20,592 nucleotides of DNA from a virus: positions 1-20,592 of the IMG/VR virus record IMGVR_UViG_3300030406_005982; one strand, written 5' to 3'. Both the position numbers and the translations under genes were made by a program. Under the pieces are notes generated by a model. It had not been told where the DNA came from. It was given only the letters and a program-made list of their open reading frames with translations, and did not search any database. This document shows positions 3,125 to 20,592 of this stretch, one piece after another; the stretch's first letter is position 1, and each line of letters opens with the position of its first letter.

Positions 3125-3880
3125 GTGGTTAAACCTCGCAGAATTGATGATTTCAAACCTACATTTACAAATTTAGCACAAACATCACATTATCAATTGA
3201 TATTTGGTGGATTACCTCTTGGTGTGAGACAACATTTAAATGTTCGTGGAGTTGATTATAGATTCATTACTGAAACATCAGGGTTACTTTGCAACAATGC
3301 AGTGTTACCTGGTGCGACTCTAGCAACTAGTCAGATAGTTGGTAACTTCATGGGTGTTACGGAAAATATGGCTCATACAAAGGTATTCACTAAGATAAAC
3401 TTGGAATTTTATGTTGATAGTGAGTATAAGAGTTTGAAGTTTTTAGAGCATTGGATAGAATTTATTGCAAACGCATCAGGTGAAGATAAAGATAGAAAAG
3501 ATTATTACTTCAGAATGGAGTATCCTGATGATTATAAAGCATATCAAACTAAGATAATAAAATTTGATAGAGACTACAATGAAGAAATGCAATATAACTT
3601 CTATGGTATGTTTCCACAACAAATAAATGCAATACCTGTTAAGTATGAGGGATCTGATATTTTAAAAGCAACTGCTACGTTTATGTTTGATAGATACACT
3701 GCTGGTAAATATTCGAGTTACGATAAGTATCGTGGTAGATATAACAACTTGAAAGAGACATTTAAGAAGGAAAGACAAAGAAAAGAGGAAGTCAAAGCAA
3801 TAGCAGATGACAGTGGACTAACTAACAAAGAAGCTGCTATAATACAAGCAGGTGGTTTTGTAGAAACAGTTATCGAATAA
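3125..3880 (+). CDS. Tail-tube-fold protein, probably gp54-like tail-tube initiator
   Basis: The start is GTG: an in-frame TAG at 3113-3115 excludes an upstream start and the next in-frame ATG is about 75 codons inside. The 251-residue protein has the tail-tube pattern: YQLIFGGLP near the N-terminus, a CNNAVLPGATLATSQIVG segment, NLEFYVDSEYKSLKFLEHWI (about residues 94-113) and a late ATATFMFDRYT strand. T4 gp19 (tube) and gp54 (tube initiator) share this layout. The location beside baseplate genes favours gp54; at 251 residues it is shorter than T4 gp54 (about 320) and longer than gp19 (about 163). The last 50 residues are basic and helical. In T4, gp54 binds gp48 at the top of the baseplate and begins tube polymerisation. 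A gp19 paralogue is the main alternative. Confidence 0.75.
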   Translation: MVKPRRIDDFKPTFTNLAQTSHYQLIFGGLPLGVRQHLNVRGVDYRFITETSGLLCNNAVLPGATLATSQIVGNFMGVTENMAHTKVFTKINLEFYVDSEYKSLKFLEHWIEFIANASGEDKDRKDYYFRMEYPDDYKAYQTKIIKFDRDYNEEMQYNFYGMFPQQINAIPVKYEGSDILKATATFMFDRYTAGKYSSYDKYRGRYNNLKETFKKERQRKEEVKAIADDSGLTNKEAAIIQAGGFVETVIE

Positions 3881-3913: not shown

Positions 3914-4627
3914 ATGCCTTTACCAAAGATTAGCACTCCAACTTATGGATTGACGATTCCTTCAAGTGGAAAGAATATAAAATACAGACCTTTTCTAGTT
4001 AAGGAGGAAAAGATACTTATCATTGCGATGGAGAGTCAGGATGATAAGCAGATTGCACAAGCAGTAAAAGATGTGTTAGGAAGTTGCATTTTAACAAAGG
4101 GAATTAGTGTAGATAAACTATCCACATTTGATATTGAATATTTGTTTTTAAATATTCGTGGTAAATCTGTGGGTGAGAGTGTTGAAGTATTAATCACTTG
4201 CCCTGACGATAATACGACTAAAGTACCTGTGATGATCAATTTGGATGATATCAAAATTAAGAAAGATGATGATCATAGTGTTGATATACCACTTGATGGT
4301 AATTTAAGTATGAGAATGAAGTATCCAGCGATGGGTGAATTTATAAAGAACAACTTCAGCACTGAGATGAAAGTTGATGATACTTTTGATATGGTTGCAT
4401 CTTGTATCGAACAAGTTTATAGTGAAGAGGAGTCTTGGTCAGCAGCAGACTGCACAAAAGATGAAATGCAAGATTTTCTAGAGCAATTAGATTCAAATCA
4501 ATTTAAGAAAATAGAAAAATTCTTTGAAACCATGCCTAGATTATCTCACACATTTAAAGTAATTAACCCAAATACAAAAGTTGAAAGTGATGTTACGTTG
4601 GAGGGGTTAAACTCTTTTTTCGTCTAG
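3914..4627 (+). CDS. gp26: gp26-like baseplate hub / tail assembly protein
   Basis: The 237-residue product fits the T4 gp26 family (T4 about 208 residues), widely found in marine T4-like phages. Characteristic stretches are the N-terminal MPLPKISTPTYGLTIPSSGK, the KYRPFLVKEEKILIIAMES strand-helix, and FDIEYLFLNIRGKSVGE (about residues 74-90). T4 gp26 is a minor hub-assembly component. Position just upstream of the tape-measure-like genes is also where other phages place the first tail-assembly chaperone gene (lambda G, P2 E). The zero-frame stop lies two codons after a T TTT TTC heptamer at 4615-4621, so part of the output is probably a 300-residue -1 frameshift product. No clear Shine-Dalgarno sequence precedes the ATG. 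Confidence 0.82.
   Translation: MPLPKISTPTYGLTIPSSGKNIKYRPFLVKEEKILIIAMESQDDKQIAQAVKDVLGSCILTKGISVDKLSTFDIEYLFLNIRGKSVGESVEVLITCPDDNTTKVPVMINLDDIKIKKDDDHSVDIPLDGNLSMRMKYPAMGEFIKNNFSTEMKVDDTFDMVASCIEQVYSEEESWSAADCTKDEMQDFLEQLDSNQFKKIEKFFETMPRLSHTFKVINPNTKVESDVTLEGLNSFFV
4600..4621 (+). promoter_or_regulatory. Predicted -1 programmed frameshift signal (GGAGGGG plus T TTT TTC)
   Basis: In the gp26 frame the codons read TCT TTT TTC GTC TAG, giving the heptamer T TTT TTC (4615-4621), of the X-XXY-YYZ type. GGAGGGG (4600-4606) lies about 10 bases upstream, the spacing at which internal Shine-Dalgarno sequences stimulate -1 slippage in bacterial dnaX. The -1 frame is open from 4591 through the next gene. 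A weak 7-bp stem (4623-4629 with 4643-4649, one G-T pair) may follow. P2 uses T TTT TTG at the equivalent tail-chaperone position. Confidence 0.7.
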
Positions 4628-4629
4628 GT

Positions 4630-4815
4630 ATGGCTCACGAGGATCTAGAGTCATACTACAAAACAAATTTTGCCTTGATGCAACACCATAAATATAGTTT
4701 GACAGAGCTAGAAAATATGATTCCGTGGGAGAGAGACATCTATCTCACATTGCTCCAACAATATATTGAGGAGGAAAAACTGAAGGCTCAGCAGGAAAGA
4801 GGTATTAATGGATGA
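4630..4815 (+). CDS. Small T-like tail assembly ORF, probably expressed by -1 frameshift from gp26
   Basis: The ORF encodes 61 residues from ATG, with an ESYYKTNFALMQHHKYSLTE stretch and a MIPWERDIYLTLLQQYIEEE helix. The His-x-x-x-Ser-Leu-x-Glu-Leu then Met-Pro-Trp-Glu layout recalls the downstream half of phage tail-chaperone pairs. The ATG lacks a well-spaced Shine-Dalgarno sequence; the only good one, GGAGGGG at 4600, is 23 bases away. The same frame is open upstream to 4591, where it overlaps the end of gp26 at the slippery heptamer. Slippage would add Arg-Leu-Gly plus these 61 residues after gp26 residue 236, giving about 300 residues. In other phages such G-T fusions bind the tape measure protein, and a tape-measure-like gene starts 8 bases before this ORF ends. 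Independent translation by coupling is also possible. Confidence 0.75.
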   Translation: MAHEDLESYYKTNFALMQHHKYSLTELENMIPWERDIYLTLLQQYIEEEKLKAQQERGING

Positions 4816-6142
4816 AGACCAGCAACAGGAGGGTCAACAAGAAGAGGAACAGAAAGAACAACGAATAGCACCAGCAGCATTTACGAGTTTTAACATTTCT
4901 GCACCTCCAAGAAGACCAATCTCATCTCTAGCACTATTTCAAAGACAAAGTGCTGAGGGTGATGAGGAACTTTCTGCAGCTGTAAAATCTAATCAAACAG
5001 CAATAACTTCAATAAACAGCACACTAGCGGCTGTTACGATGCAAATATCCGCACTTAATAAATCTCTAGTTCAAGTTGCTGAACAAATTAAACAATCAGC
5101 AGCGATAGAGAATTTAAGAATGGCTCAAGAGCGAAAGCAAGAAATGATGCTCGCTGATCGTAACTTAAGGAGAGGTGCAGAGAATAATTTAGAGAGAGGA
5201 ATACAAGCAGCTTTATTTGCACCAGTGCAGAGAATAGGAGCAAAGGCAACATTTACTTTATCGAGACTAATAAATTTCTTCAATGTATTGTTAGGAGGTT
5301 TTTTAGTAGGAAGAACACTTAATTTAATAACTGCTTTAGTAAATGATGATAAGGAAGCATTGAAGAAGATTGGTGATACGATAGTTGGACAACTCGCAGC
5401 AGCAGGTGGTATATTTCTGGCGATTAATGGTGGATTATTAATCGCACTTAACTCTTTGACTAGACTAGCATCATTCCTTACACAGGTAGCGGTATCTAAT
5501 TTATTAATAAAACCAATTAAATTGATATTTAATATTGCAAAGGGATTAGTTGCAGCAATAGCTGTGGGAGCATCAGGTTTATTTAATGTTCCTCCTATTC
5601 CACCCAATGTTAATCCACAAAATGTAAAACCAAATAATAAAAATAAAACTAGGAACACGAATCGTTTAGGTACAATTTTTGCAGCGTTAGCAAACTTTGG
5701 GTTTGCAGCAAATCAAATAAGACAGGGCGGTGATCCTAAAAGAGAGTTAACAGGAGCTAGTGGTGGTCTTTTATCATTCATCCTTTCAGGTAGTGTTGGT
5801 CGTCGTTTGATGTCTAGTCCTAATTTTGGTGTGAAAGTATTGGGATTTGGAATATCAACACTTGGACCTCTCTTAGGATACCCACTAGCAACCACAGGAT
5901 ATGATTTAATCACTCAATCTGCTGGATTAGAGGCTATAAGTGGTGATGTCTCTCAAGATATATCAACACAAATTGATAAAATAAGAACTAATAATATAAT
6001 TGTAAATCAAGCCAAACCAGCACAACCTGCACCTTTTGGTCCAGAAGGTAGAGCAGCTTTACTAATGTTTGCTCCTTCATTCAATCGTAATAATATGTAC
6101 ATAGCATATTCTCATATTCAGTATAACGTTCCGATGGTATGA
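4808..6142 (+). CDS. Tape-measure-like structural protein I
   Basis: The 444-residue protein starts at an ATG with AGAGG at 4798-4802 and overlaps the preceding ORF by 8 bases. Residues 1-20 are Gln/Glu-rich. Residues about 52-130 are long helical, coiled-coil-like sequence (AVKSNQTAITSINSTLAAVT, then ERKQEMMLADRNLRR). Residues about 152-178 and 190-258 are strongly hydrophobic (FFNVLLGGFLVGRTL; AAAGGIFLAINGGLLIALNS). An Asn/Pro-rich linker and a second hydrophobic region (residues about 320-370) follow. Long helix plus hydrophobic stretches is typical of tape measure proteins, which fill the tail tube, set its length and may aid DNA passage. Position after the chaperone-like pair and before gp27 matches T4 gp29. 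No direct gp29 motif was recognised, so the function is inferred. Confidence 0.8.
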   Translation: MDEDQQQEGQQEEEQKEQRIAPAAFTSFNISAPPRRPISSLALFQRQSAEGDEELSAAVKSNQTAITSINSTLAAVTMQISALNKSLVQVAEQIKQSAAIENLRMAQERKQEMMLADRNLRRGAENNLERGIQAALFAPVQRIGAKATFTLSRLINFFNVLLGGFLVGRTLNLITALVNDDKEALKKIGDTIVGQLAAAGGIFLAINGGLLIALNSLTRLASFLTQVAVSNLLIKPIKLIFNIAKGLVAAIAVGASGLFNVPPIPPNVNPQNVKPNNKNKTRNTNRLGTIFAALANFGFAANQIRQGGDPKRELTGASGGLLSFILSGSVGRRLMSSPNFGVKVLGFGISTLGPLLGYPLATTGYDLITQSAGLEAISGDVSQDISTQIDKIRTNNIIVNQAKPAQPAPFGPEGRAALLMFAPSFNRNNMYIAYSHIQYNVPMV

Positions 6143-7458
6143 TGAGATCAAATTTAAATTTAGATTCAATAAAGAGATCATTATCTGGATTATCAGAGTC
6201 AATTAAGACTGCTAAAACAAACTCAGATCAGATATCAGAGAACGTTACAAAAAGAAATGAAGCTAAGAGAGAATCATTATCAATGTCTTCTAAGTTGTTT
6301 GCTAGAAGAAGAGATAACATGAGAAGGAGAGAAAAGGAAGATTTAATCGAAGCTGGTGGTGTGATGGGTGCTTTTAAGGCAAGAGCTAGAGCAGTAAGAA
6401 ATCAAACCAAAGGATTTTTAGGAAGGATACTTGATTTCCTAGCGACTGTTTTGATCGGGTGGGTAGTGTTGAATCTACCTAAGATTATTAAATTAGCAGA
6501 AGGTGTGATGAAGAGACTCAAGAAATTCTTTGATGTTATTGGTGGATTTGTAACAGGCACGATAGATTTTTTCACAGGACTTGGGGTAAGATTTTCTGAG
6601 ATGAGTGAATTAGTGAGTAAATTTGATTTTGAAAATGTTAAAAATCAGATTGAGAAATTTATGCGTAAAGTACAGGATGCATTTACAAAAATAACTCTCA
6701 CAACAATAAGAGATATAAGAAACTTCTCAGATAAGAGTGAAAAGGAATTAGCAGATGAACTTGGAATAAGAGATTTATATGATCAATTGTTGGAGAGTAA
6801 TACTGAGGATGATGCTGGTGGTGATGGAAGTGGCGATGGATCTGAGGACACTCAGCAAGAAGATGATGAGAGTGGTGATGATTTAGATAAAGAGAAACTT
6901 ATAATGGATGGAATAGAAATGTTGAAGCAGCAACAAGATGGTAAATTAACAGATAAACAACAAAATTTATTAGATGAAAAAAATTATAAAGAGTTGGATA
7001 AAGAATTATCTAAAAATGGTATCATACTTCTTATTGATAGAGATAATGGATTTATAAGTTATCTTCCTTATGAGAATAAAAAAGATCCAGGTTTACAATA
7101 TAGAGGAAACGAGGATCTATTTCGTGAGCAAAATGTTTTTCCATACGAACGTAATTCTGATGGATATACTGATATTTTTGACCCTTCTACTACATCATCT
7201 GATCAAAACTCAGATGTAAACAAATTACCACCTGGTTCAATTACTCCCCCAAACAAAAATAAACTTGATTTAACTGAAGAAAATAATGATAAAGATATAA
7301 TAATAGAATTACCACCATCAGGTGATTTTAAAACAACTGAAGATTTATTGAAGTACTTAAATCAGTCTGCTGGAATAAATCCATCTGCTAATGCTGACAT
7401 AAATAATAATGATAGTAACAAGATTTTTAATGATGCTCAGTATAATAGTCTACCTTAA
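6139..7458 (+). CDS. Tape-measure-like structural protein II
   Basis: The 439-residue product begins at an ATG overlapping the previous stop (ATGA), indicating translational coupling. The N-terminal 90 residues are basic and helical (RRRDNMRRREKEDLIEAGG). A hydrophobic, membrane-type segment, FLGRILDFLATVLIGWVVLN, lies at about residues 93-112, followed by an amphipathic region with FFDVIGGFVTGTIDFFTG. Residues about 225-250 are a highly acidic Gly/Asp/Ser linker. The last 190 residues are hydrophilic, Asn/Asp-rich and probably flexible. With its upstream partner it may supply what T4 gp29 does in one chain. It has no recognisable enzymatic motif. It is followed at 3 bases by gp27. The tape-measure role is an inference from position and composition; a baseplate structural protein is the alternative. 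Confidence 0.78.
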   Translation: MMRSNLNLDSIKRSLSGLSESIKTAKTNSDQISENVTKRNEAKRESLSMSSKLFARRRDNMRRREKEDLIEAGGVMGAFKARARAVRNQTKGFLGRILDFLATVLIGWVVLNLPKIIKLAEGVMKRLKKFFDVIGGFVTGTIDFFTGLGVRFSEMSELVSKFDFENVKNQIEKFMRKVQDAFTKITLTTIRDIRNFSDKSEKELADELGIRDLYDQLLESNTEDDAGGDGSGDGSEDTQQEDDESGDDLDKEKLIMDGIEMLKQQQDGKLTDKQQNLLDEKNYKELDKELSKNGIILLIDRDNGFISYLPYENKKDPGLQYRGNEDLFREQNVFPYERNSDGYTDIFDPSTTSSDQNSDVNKLPPGSITPPNKNKLDLTEENNDKDIIIELPPSGDFKTTEDLLKYLNQSAGINPSANADINNNDSNKIFNDAQYNSLP

Positions 7459-16063: not shown

Positions 16064-17823
16064 TGGCTGAAGGAAGAAGATCAAGTCAGCGATATTTAAG
16101 TGGAAGATCCAAGATAATTGGATTTTCTGGTTTAAGTACAGATAGACATCTGTATGTTGAATCGGGGCAGGTTGAACCTAACTTAGGATTTCCTGGTGAA
16201 AAAAGTCTTCCAGTATCAAGCACATATTATAAATTAATAACTGTTCCCAACGGGAGCACATATGATCGTTACTGGCAGGAAGATACTCCTGCTACTTTAG
16301 TAAATGGTATTACAATATTTGATGAGGGTACATTAGTAGGTACAGCAAATACTGTATCAAAATTAAATTTTGTAGGAGCAGCAGTTACTGCTACAGCAAG
16401 TGGAACCATATCTACAATTACAGTTACACCTGTATCAATATCTACCGAAGCACCATTGGGAGCAAGGCATGGGGAACTATGGTGGGATAGTGATGAAGGT
16501 GAATTAAATGTTTATTATCAAGATGCTAACAGTGCTCAGTGGGTATTAGCAAATAGTGGAATTGGAACTACCACTGGAAGTGGTGGTGGCGGTGGAGGTG
16601 GAGGTGGTAGTGGTGGTGCTAATGTAACAGTATCATCAAATCCTCCAACAAGTCCTACTCCATCCAATGGTGATCTATGGTGGGATAGTGATATTGGTGA
16701 ACTCTACATTTACTATACTGACGGTGATAGTAATCAATGGGTTGAAACTTCAGGAGGAAGTGAAACTGTTACGATATCAGATAATGCCCCACCAAGTCCA
16801 AATGATGGAGATCTATGGTGGGAAAGTAATTCTGGATCTTTAAAAATATATTATAATGATGGTGATAGTCAGCAATGGGTTGATGCAAACGCTGGTGTTC
16901 TAAGCTCTATATCATCATTCATTGCATGGAGTAAAAATAGTGCTGGTATTCATACTACAGCAAATGTTGGAATAGGAACTACAAACGTTACTGCAGTTGA
17001 TTCTAGTAACACAGCGACTCTTGCGGTTGGAATTGTTACCGCACATAAGTTATATGGTGATGGGTCAAATTTGACTGGTGTTGGTGGAACAGTTGTAATA
17101 TCAACTTCTGCTCCTTCTAGTGCTGATGTCGGAGATTTGTGGTGGGATAGTGATGATGGCGATCTTTTGGTTTATTTTAATGATGGATCTGGTTCGCAGT
17201 GGGTAAGTACTAGTGCAGGTGCCACTGGAGCTCAAGGTGCACAGGGTGCTTCTGGAGGTGGTGGCGGTGGTGGATCTGGTGCTCAAGGAGCCGCTGGAGC
17301 TCAAGGTGCTGCTGGTGCTCAAGGTGCTACAGGTGCTGCTGGTGCTCAAGGAGCCGCTGGAGCTCAAGGTGCTGCTGGTGCTCAGGGTAACGTAGGTACG
17401 GGTGCTCAAGGAGCTGCTGGTGCTCAGGGTGCATCAGGATCAGCAGGATCAAGAACTACTGCAAATGCATCGACAGGATCAATCGCTAACAACGCTTCTG
17501 CAAACATATCAATCACAGCAGCAAAGGTATATGCATTACTTAAGATTCAAACATCAGCAGCTGCATGGGTAACTCTCTATACAGATGCATCTTCAAGAAC
17601 AGCAGACTCTTCTAGAAGTGAAACTACAGATCCAACACCTGGTTCTGGTGTGGTTGCTGAAGCGATTACAACTGGTGCTGCGACACAGATTATAACTCCA
17701 GGATTAATCGGTTGGAACAACGATGGAACACCTGCATCAACAATTTATGCAAAAGTTGTGAATAAAAGTGGAAGCACACAAGCAATTACAGTGACCGTAC
17801 ATTACCTACCTCTTGAGACCTAA
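16063..17823 (+). CDS. Modular collagen-like tail fibre protein
   Basis: The 586-residue protein is built from repeats. Four modules with a conserved GxLWWDSDxGxLxVYYxD...QWV core are centred near residues 141, 204, 252 and 361. A poly-Gly spacer (about 173-183) lies between the first two. Between the third and fourth is a GIHTTANVGIGTTNV segment similar to one in the 1088-residue fibre. Residues about 386-463 are collagen-like Gly-x-y triplets dominated by Gly-Ala-Gln-Gly, interrupted by a second poly-Gly run. The C-terminal 120 residues form a beta-rich head (ITAAKVYALLKIQTSAAAWV, ITVTVHYLPLET), probably the tip. Collagen-like shafts are trimeric in phage fibres. Direct overlap at both ends (TAATG) ties it to its neighbours. 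A receptor-binding fibre is likely. Confidence 0.85.
   Translation: MAEGRRSSQRYLSGRSKIIGFSGLSTDRHLYVESGQVEPNLGFPGEKSLPVSSTYYKLITVPNGSTYDRYWQEDTPATLVNGITIFDEGTLVGTANTVSKLNFVGAAVTATASGTISTITVTPVSISTEAPLGARHGELWWDSDEGELNVYYQDANSAQWVLANSGIGTTTGSGGGGGGGGGSGGANVTVSSNPPTSPTPSNGDLWWDSDIGELYIYYTDGDSNQWVETSGGSETVTISDNAPPSPNDGDLWWESNSGSLKIYYNDGDSQQWVDANAGVLSSISSFIAWSKNSAGIHTTANVGIGTTNVTAVDSSNTATLAVGIVTAHKLYGDGSNLTGVGGTVVISTSAPSSADVGDLWWDSDDGDLLVYFNDGSGSQWVSTSAGATGAQGAQGASGGGGGGGSGAQGAAGAQGAAGAQGATGAAGAQGAAGAQGAAGAQGNVGTGAQGAAGAQGASGSAGSRTTANASTGSIANNASANISITAAKVYALLKIQTSAAAWVTLYTDASSRTADSSRSETTDPTPGSGVVAEAITTGAATQIITPGLIGWNNDGTPASTIYAKVVNKSGSTQAITVTVHYLPLET
17278..17384 (+). repeat. Direct 44-bp repeat within the collagen-like segment
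   Basis: Bases 17278-17321 and 17341-17384 are identical over 44 bases, with 63 bases (21 codons) between the starts. Recombination between them would remove or add 21 codons in frame and change shaft length without breaking the gene. Confidence 0.85.
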
Positions 17824-19520
17824 TGGAGAAAGTATATATCGTAACTCTTAGTAATCGTGATGATCTTGAGGATTTTTATGCAGAGATGTCCTCAAAGGGA
17901 TTTAAGCTGCACATGAAGAGAACGATTAGTAGAAATACTAATTACTACATGACTCAGGAGCAAGCAGATGAATTAAAGAAAGACTCTAGGGTCATAGATG
18001 TTCAGGCAGCAGATGATTTTATAATAGAGAAACAAGCAATATACAATAATACGTCATATACTAAAAATGGTTATTTTTGGAAAGATGATTCACAGGGAGC
18101 ATTTACAATTCCAGCGACTGATTTTCAATGGGGACATACTCTTGCTGGATCCACATCACAAATAGGAAAGGGATCTTTTGGTAGAATAGCATCTGGAGGA
18201 ACCACAGAGAGAAAAACTACAAGTCTGGATGTATTTAATGATGGTAAACATGTTGATGTTGTGATTGTTGATGACCCAATGGCGTATGATAGTGAGGAGT
18301 GGTATAGTCCGTCAACTAATACAACAAGATTTGTTCAATATCAATGGTTTAACCAACTGAATACTTACGTGAGTTCTATTGATGATGATGGTATGACTTT
18401 ACCAACAGGAACAATTACATATAGACAAAATTCAGCGGAGTCAAACTATCATGGTCAGCATGTGGGGGGAACAGTTGCAGGACAACATTATGGTTGGGCA
18501 AGGGAAGCAAACATATACAATTTAGCAGTGACTGATAATTTTGCTTCAGGTCAATTTATTAGTGCGTATTTGATATATGATTACCTTCGTGCTTTTCATT
18601 TACATAAAGCAGTGAATCCAACAACTGGTCGTAGAAATCCAACAATTACAAATCATAGTTATGGTGGCGTTTTTTATTTTAATTCTGATCGAGAAGCACT
18701 ACCCTTTAGTGATTTAAACTCAGTTGTCTATAGAGGAACAACATATAACTCAGGAAATCCTGGTCCTTCAGGTTGGACACAATCTGGAGTTGAGGCAGAC
18801 TTTGGAGTAAGATTTGATATAACTTCAGGTCCTAGTCAAAGTGCAGCAATATCAGCAGATGTGCAAGATGCTATAGATGATGGTGTAGTTATAATTGGTG
18901 CTGCTGGAAATGATAACCTTGTAATTGCAGATCCAAGTAGTGCTGATTGGAATAATTATATAAATTGGGATTATGATGGATTTCCGAGATCACGATATTA
19001 TATGAGAGGTGCTTGGCCAAATTCTCCTGATAATGATTCAATCATAGTTGGTGCATTAAATAATACTCATAATTTTACAAGAGCTACTTTTACAATGCAC
19101 GGACCAGGTGTGGATGTGTTTGCACCAGGTCAAAGAATAGTATCTTGTTATGGTAGTGGTGGTTTGAATGATACAAAATATAGTGCTGGTTCTAGCAATA
19201 GATATTTTACTCTTAATGGAACTAGTATGGCTTCTCCTCAAGTAGCAGGAGTCGTTGCAACACTAGCGACTGCAAAATATAGATTTACTAATTCTGATGT
19301 AAAAGGATATTTACAGAGGCATAGTAAAGAAAATGATATGACTTTTGATTCGGGCACTGGATCTTACGATGATAACACCAGTCAACTAGGAAGTCCTAAC
19401 AAATATCTTTTATCAAAAAATCCAAGACCTACATCAGGCATGATTGAAGATGTGAAAGGTGAAAGAAAAACAAGTGGTATGACTTTCCCCCGTAGGTCAA
19501 CTTTGAACTACCAGCACTAA
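17823..19520 (+). CDS. Subtilisin-like serine protease (family S8) with propeptide-like N-terminus
   Basis: The 565-residue protein has the full subtilase set. Asp150 lies in VDVVIVDD, His210 in [12 protein letters not shown] (usual HGTHVAG), oxyanion Asn363 in IIGAAGND, and Ser468 in [12 protein letters not shown], in the canonical D-H-N-S order. Residues about 1-70 ([20 protein letters not shown] through [15 protein letters not shown]) resemble an I9-type propeptide, a chaperone and inhibitor removed on activation. Insertions lie between the catalytic blocks, and about 65 residues follow the protease core. No signal peptide or membrane segment is seen, so it acts in the infected cell or as part of the virion. 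It sits between two collagen-like fibre genes with a TAATG start overlap. Likely roles are cleavage of fibre proteins during maturation, or digestion of host surface proteins; both are inference. Confidence 0.92.
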
Positions 19521-19528: not shown

Positions 19529-20592
19529 ATGGCTCAGTTTAACTTCCCATCTAGTCCAAATAACGGTGATTCTTTTACACAGAATGGCGTAACTTTTCAG
19601 TGGGATGGTGAAGCGTGGAGAAGACAGGGAGTTGCAGGTGCTCAGGGTGCTTCAGGAACTAATGGTGCTCAGGGTGCTTCAGGAACTAATGGTGCTCAGG
19701 GTGCTTCAGGAACTAATGGTGCACAAGGATCTGCTGGTGCTCAAGGTGCACAAGGTGTCGCTGGAACTGCTGCATCACAAGGTGCTCAAGGTGCTGCTGG
19801 TGCTCAAGGGGATTCTGGATCTGCTGGTAGTACAGGTGCTCAGGGTGCTCAAGGTCATCAAGGACAGGCTGGAGCTGCTGCATCACAAGGTGCTCAAGGT
19901 GCAACAGGTGCTCAAGGTGCTCAAGGTCATCAAGGTGCTACAGGTTCAGGATCTACTGGTGCTCAGGGTGCTACAGGTGCAACAGGTGCTCAGGGTGCAA
20001 CAGGTTCTGGAGGATCTACAGGTGCTCAAGGTGCTACTGGTTCTACGGGAGCACAAGGTGCACAAGGACATCAAGGAAATACTGGATCGACAGGAGCACA
20101 AGGAGATGCTGGTTCAAGATCATATACTGTAACAAACAGTGGATCTGGTGCATATGTGATAGATGGATCTAATAATCCAACACTTAATTTATTGAGAGGG
20201 TTTACATATACATTTAATATTAATGCTTCAGGTCATCCTTTTTATATTAAAACAGCACAGACCACAGGCACAGGAAATCAATACACAAGTGGTGTGACTG
20301 GAAATGGAACACAATCAGGAACATTAACATTTGCTGTTCCTTATAACGCACCATCAACTTTATATTATATCTGTCAGTATCACAGTGCAATGAAAGGCAC
20401 TATATCAATTTCTGATGTAGGTCCGACTGGTGCTCAAGGTGCTGCTGGAGCACAGGGTGCATCTGGAACTAATGGTGCACAAGGTGCTCAAGGTCATCAG
20501 GGTGCTGGTGGTTCAGGAGGATCTACAGGTGCCCAAGGTGCTACAGGAGCACAAGGTGCTCAAGGTCATCAAGGTAATACAGGATCAGGTGG
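19529..20592 (+). CDS. Collagen-like tail fibre with embedded cupredoxin-like domain (partial, runs off the right edge)
   Basis: The frame is open for 354 codons from the ATG to the window end, so the C-terminus is missing. The N-terminus ([20 protein letters not shown], then [14 protein letters not shown]) is a short module of the kind starting many marine phage fibres. Residues about 36-198 are Gly-x-y triplets, mostly GAQG with GASGTNG, GHQG and AASQG variants. Residues about 199-300 form a beta domain with [20 protein letters not shown] and a closing [16 protein letters not shown]. His236, Cys282, His285 and Met288 fit the four type-1 copper ligands of cupredoxins. Collagen-like sequence then resumes to the edge. 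The gene follows the protease by 8 bases, without a Shine-Dalgarno sequence. It is probably a trimeric receptor-binding fibre; whether copper is bound is untested. Confidence 0.88.
19637..19717 (+). repeat. Perfect tandem repeat, three 27-bp units
   Basis: Three identical 27-bp units starting at 19637, 19664 and 19691 encode GAQGASGTN each. The unit is nine codons, so slippage keeps the reading frame. A fourth unit begins with GGTGC but diverges (GGTGCACAAG). Confidence 0.95.

Follow-up and report, generated by a model that had tools for sequence, protein, structure and literature searches.

The lambda G/GT pair and other chaperones of dsDNA phages comprise a short form and a long form made by a -1 frameshift, the two sharing their N-terminal part; in lambda, the binding partner of the G part is the tape measure protein and that of the T part the tail tube protein (PMC5009743). 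PMC3004832 lists T4 gp26 and gp51 among the hub assembly chaperones and notes that the finished particle lacks gp51. Papers that cite Vladimirov et al. 2022 (Virology 566:9) credit it with identifying the tail assembly chaperones of T4-like phages. PRFect (PMC10885494) sums that work up as describing, for "some T4-like phages", a short gene and a long one, and in PMC12846349 it is the reference given for slippery poly-T stretches in chaperone genes of T4-like phages. Going by these citations, a G/GT strategy has already been proposed in some form for T4-like phages. A preliminary description of the DNA analysed here had read gp26 and the small ORF behind it as a G/GT-type pair, to its author's knowledge undescribed for the gp26 region of T4-like phages. 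The reading as a pair stands, but in view of Vladimirov et al. 2022 as cited, and of PMC12846349, the arrangement is not wholly undescribed.

A related case is the TAC of Pseudomonas phage Adele and the Vandenendeviridae. The accessible part of PMC12846349 describes a conserved -1 frame without a -1 stop and a poly-T motif where the short chaperone gene ends, as in the locus presented below; the motif there is GTTTTT, the phage family is a different one, and neither an upstream SD nor a downstream hairpin is reported in that part of the article. The E. coli dnaX gene has the same three-part layout as our locus (SD-like element, heptamer, hairpin), but its shift shortens the product whereas the shift predicted here would lengthen it. 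The dnaX heptamer is A_AAA_AAG, as against T_TTT_TTC. In work on E. coli, U_UU.U_UU.C is among the shift-prone motifs, stimulatory structures lie 5-8 nt downstream, and SD elements were searched for 6-17 nt upstream (PMC4066793).

The gp26 locus

We analysed a 20,592-base virus contig from a marine phage, the whole of which we call the window. The features of its gp26 locus are as follows.

3125-3880, + strand: tail tube protein gene, directly upstream of gp26 (PF23849, phrog_45)
3914-4627, + strand: gp26, predicted short chaperone form, 237 aa (PF12322, E 1.5e-74; phrog_150, E 8.7e-81)
4591-4815, + strand: -1 reading frame, open across the junction, with a 37-nt overlap with gp26
4600-4606, + strand: SD-like GGAGGGG, 8 nt before the heptamer; an SD-like core lies upstream in 103 of 105 dereplicated relatives
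4615-4621, + strand: slippery heptamer T_TTT_TTC, in 105 of 108 dereplicated relatives; top-ranked synonymous conservation
4627-4657, + strand: hairpin and candidate stimulator, 4627-4636 pairing with 4648-4657, 5 nt past the heptamer and enclosing the ATG of T
4630-4815, + strand: T segment, gp51-like, 61 aa from its own ATG or 66 aa from the heptamer (phrog_634, E 1.7e-28); homologous to the C-terminus of T4 gp51
4808-6142, + strand: next ORF, 444 aa, overlapping the end of T; a tape measure role is possible

We consider it very probable that gp26 and the small downstream ORF (T) form a tail assembly chaperone pair of the lambda G/GT type by way of a -1 frameshift. Most ribosomes would stop at 4627 and release the short form of 237 aa. 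A minority would be held by the SD-like element upstream and the hairpin downstream and would slip by -1 on T_TTT_TTC while Phe-tRNAs occupy the P and A sites, giving a 300-aa fusion with the T segment. We infer both the occurrence of the shift and its rate from the sequence. By analogy with lambda, the targets of the two forms may be the tape measure and tail tube proteins. This reading, already put forward in the preliminary description, is supported by the frame, the heptamer, the SD-like element, the hairpin, the loss of start codons, the homology to gp51 and the chaperone fold.

As in lambda, the putative chaperone gene comes after the tail tube gene and has a chaperone fold match. The locus differs from G/GT in its T_TTT_TTC site, its clear SD-like element, its hairpin at +5 and its T4 gp26 family protein (PF12322). 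The gp26 product scores 250.8 bits against PF12322, for which the curated cut-off is 24.5, and so belongs to the T4 gp26 family. The product of the small ORF falls in phrog_634 (gp51-like, "baseplate hub assembly catalyst"); phrog_150 is matched as well, over its C-terminal 40 positions.

The 3' end of gp26 reads AAC TCT TTT TTC GTC TAG, and the preliminary description was right in placing the heptamer of this stretch at 4615-4621. It was equally right that the -1 frame is open from 4591, which leaves a 37-nt interval for a useful shift, and that the product would have about 300 residues and include the MIPWERDIYL segment. The predicted -1 product joins 234 and 66 residues (...LNS-FF-RLGMAHEDL...MIPWERDIYL...). 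Its junction peptide in the window would be LGMAHEDLESYYK, which a free T starting at Met cannot yield.

Conservation of the slippery site

The junction was compared across 340 sequences, consisting of the window, 80 close relatives, the yield of three scans seeded with divergent gp26 proteins, and phage isolates. T could be found at 335 of these loci and lies in the -1 frame of gp26 at 333 of them. The two zero-frame exceptions are T4 and Aeromonas phage 25, where gp51 holds both parts in one ORF. An in-frame T_TTT_TTN stands 2-4 codons ahead of the stop at 330 of the 333 -1-frame loci (105 of 108 after dereplication). The same motif occurs in frame at 10 of 20,895 other gp26 positions of the relatives, and 4 times among the 6,259 codon positions of the main ORFs of the window. 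The presence of the heptamer at this site is far beyond chance, and what the preliminary description observed is right.

The composition of the run points to selection at the nucleotide level and not on the protein alone. In all 105 dereplicated sequences the third base of the codon preceding the T run is T, whether that codon stands for Ser, Asp, Asn or Ala. The first codon of the run is TTT in 105 of 105, and the usage of TTT elsewhere in gp26 is 72%. The three heptamer codons rank 2nd, 1st and 5th among 197 gp26 columns for excess synonymous identity. The second codon of the run is TTC, TTA, TTT or TTG, that is, Phe or Leu. Conservation of Phe-Phe in the protein was rejected as the cause of the T run, since 23 of the 105 have Leu as the second residue and the preceding codon is T-ending throughout.

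The arrangement could in principle be an artefact, either a sequencing or assembly indel in a single gp26-T gene or a Phe-Phe kept for the protein only. Homopolymers are error-prone, and Stenotrophomonas phage IME-SM1 is indeed one T short of its sister phage Marzo. An indel is nonetheless contradicted by 333 loci with the identical -1 arrangement, which come from many assemblies and include isolates. Together with the codon evidence above, this leaves a vanishingly small likelihood for an artefact.

The heptamer is missing at three loci that keep T in the -1 frame, those of Vibrio K476, Vibrio D533 and VAP7 (at about 3208-3225, 2070-2090 and 2230-2246 of the respective loci). Because a T_TTY tetramer remains near the stop, along with overlapping stop and start codons, these phages may shift on the tetramer or re-initiate. 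In IME-SM1, five T stand at the slippery site (about 2240), as against six in Marzo (about 1938-1945). Because of the one T fewer, the IME-SM1 gp26 ORF extends about 30 residues in another frame; the missing T probably reflects a sequencing error in the homopolymer or else a mutated site.

Elements flanking the slippery site

The preliminary description had also noted GGAGGGG about 10 bases ahead of the heptamer. The element is present, but the spacing is 8 nt. When 24 nt upstream were searched in the relatives, an SD-like core was found in 103 of 105, and in 102 it ends 9-10 nt before the T run; in 38 of the relatives the core is only AAGG. In the conserved Leu-Glu-Gly, most Glu codons are GAG, even though gp26 otherwise prefers GAA.

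The downstream hairpin is absent from the preliminary description and was found in the follow-up analysis. The 81-nt fold of the window taken alone is unexceptional (z -1.2). Across the 105 relatives, the folding energy of 36-nt segments reaches its minimum, -7.5 kcal/mol, at +3, against a background of -2.7 (sd 0.86). Synonymous resampling at the hairpin gives a mean z of -1.80 (-3.1 for the window), and the control region gives -0.28. This analysis of folding energy and synonymous resampling over the 105 relatives is the unbiased test of the hairpin. Base pairing was also counted by stem type. Stems of the window type pair at 90.4% of positions, compared with 30-52% when slid; the second stem type, in a set chosen by its pairing, has 95.6% pairs compared with 22-49% when slid. 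The counts for hairpin groups A-C are biased because the groups were sorted by pairing, and A4 was drawn mostly from group C. Both stem types show some compensating double changes, of which few are independent events. The shape of the stem varies by lineage, and in some lineages the hairpin is weak.

The three elements of the window, GGAGGGG at 4600-4606, the heptamer at 4615-4621 and a stem from 4627, lie at the distances of a dnaX-type signal under the E. coli spacing rules (PMC4066793). Their combination also bears on a different route to the same fusion, in which RNA polymerase slips on the T run and a fraction of the mRNAs is in the shifted frame. The run of six T, extended to T7-T8 in a few relatives, is the kind of sequence that this would require. 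Six T are, however, short for efficient transcriptional slippage, and an in-frame heptamer with an SD-like element and a hairpin fits slippage by the ribosome. We regard the polymerase as a very unlikely agent.

Initiation of T

If T were a separate small protein, the gp51-like "baseplate hub assembly catalyst", it would be made by termination and reinitiation at the post-stop ATG, and the heptamer would be incidental. In the window, the ATG at 4630 sits only 2 nt past the gp26 TAG; stop and start codons overlap in Cr30, D482, K476 and VAP7; and in GenBank records T is often annotated as its own gene. Other records omit T (several) or start it at internal codons, and in none of those inspected is T joined to gp26.

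Comparison of the start region across 329 loci goes against this account. The codon at the position of ATG 4630 is ATG in 102 loci, the clade of the window among them, and encodes Leu in 226. At 170 loci no ATG occurs until at least 16 codons beyond the heptamer, inside conserved T sequence. With most relatives devoid of a start codon, an independent start of T was rejected as a general rule. The preliminary description had held that the ATG of the small ORF is without a suitably spaced ribosome site, and this was borne out: no SD-like 4-mer is found 5-14 nt upstream of the T ATG in any of the 102 ATG-bearing loci, the window included. Moreover, the hairpin of the window encloses the ATG, and separate synthesis leaves the conserved heptamer unexplained. 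We find it quite improbable that T is made as a separate protein in place of the fusion; some free T may be made alongside it.

With the frameshifted pair as the preferred reading, "gp51" in these loci is most likely the tail of a frameshifted chaperone and not a free gene. This would call for a corrected annotation of a core gene that some of the most abundant marine phages carry.

Relationship to T4 gp26 and gp51

The match between T4 gp51 and a profile of the virtual -1 fusion extends over positions 23-280 of 298; with T4 gp26, only the gp26 part is matched. In agreement, PF12322 covers T4 gp26 and residues 1-201 of T4 gp51, and phrog_150 spans T4 gp51 end to end. The gp26 of the window thus corresponds to T4 gp26, and gp26 plus T to T4 gp51, but the parts are overlapping frames at one locus here and two genes of opposite orientation in T4. 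Since gp51 resembles gp26 plus T from end to end and T4 gp26 resembles gp26 alone, T4 carries the short and the long form as two divergent genes, and the phage of the window most likely obtains both from one locus by frameshifting. It is possible, though we hold it with some doubt, that the three-part signal is common to the Kyanoviridae and several other T4-like lineages, and that in the Straboviridae (T4) a duplication into gp26 (short) and gp51 (long) took its place. If so, members of one superfamily would arrive at the same chaperone ratio in two ways, some lineages by recoding and others with two genes, which would offer a natural comparison of recoding with gene duplication as ways of setting the ratio of two products.

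The two parts were folded separately with AlphaFold. The gp26 model has a pLDDT of 87.5, and the T model, three helices, a pLDDT of 77. Residues 1-90 of the gp26 model, compared with the PDB by VIA, match the HK97 tail assembly chaperone (2ob9, Z 7.8) and 3fgx (7.8), followed by 3klu YqbN (7.2) and 5ir0 (4.7), values just under the safe level of 8 that form a group clear of the unrelated matches (next, 2.4). YqbN-like proteins (3klu) are a tail assembly chaperone family. Foldseek of the gp26 model against the PDB returned nothing below E 0.001, and profile searches of the PDB with the gp26 and T sequences gave no convincing match. The models suggest, with moderate strength, that the N-terminal domain of gp26 has the fold of the HK97 tail assembly chaperone. 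For gp26 and gp51, which have long been put down as hub components or catalysts with no clear function, this would mean a specific and testable role as tail assembly chaperones.

Genes downstream of T

The preliminary description had called the gene after T tape-measure-like, and in the window this was not confirmed. The ORF at 4808-6142 has no match in Pfam or PHROGs, and tblastn lent no support to a tape measure identity either. In Vibrio D482 and Sinorhizobium phiN3, an ORF just downstream does match tape measure PHROGs. Because 4808-6142 is without a family match, adjacency to a tape measure gene is inferred from the relatives only.

Positions 4808-7458 of the window hold two consecutive ORFs (444 and 439 aa) with an ATGA overlap and hydrophobic stretches; they match a few cyanophages only (P-SSM2, S-SRM01), over their N-terminal parts. 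In Synechococcus phage S-PM2, a large ORF directly after T (from 2703 of its locus) has an N-terminal match to an ADP-ribosyltransferase family (PF01129). The ORF after T varies strongly among related phages, being annotated as chitinase, peptidase, endolysin or hypothetical.

Elsewhere in the window, collagen-like Gly-X-X coding repeats occur near the tail fibre region (17100-17410 and 19605-20132), and similar repeat DNA is found again near the window end. A 565-aa ORF at 17823-19520, inside the structural gene region, has the look of a subtilisin-type serine protease, the motif having been recognised by eye.
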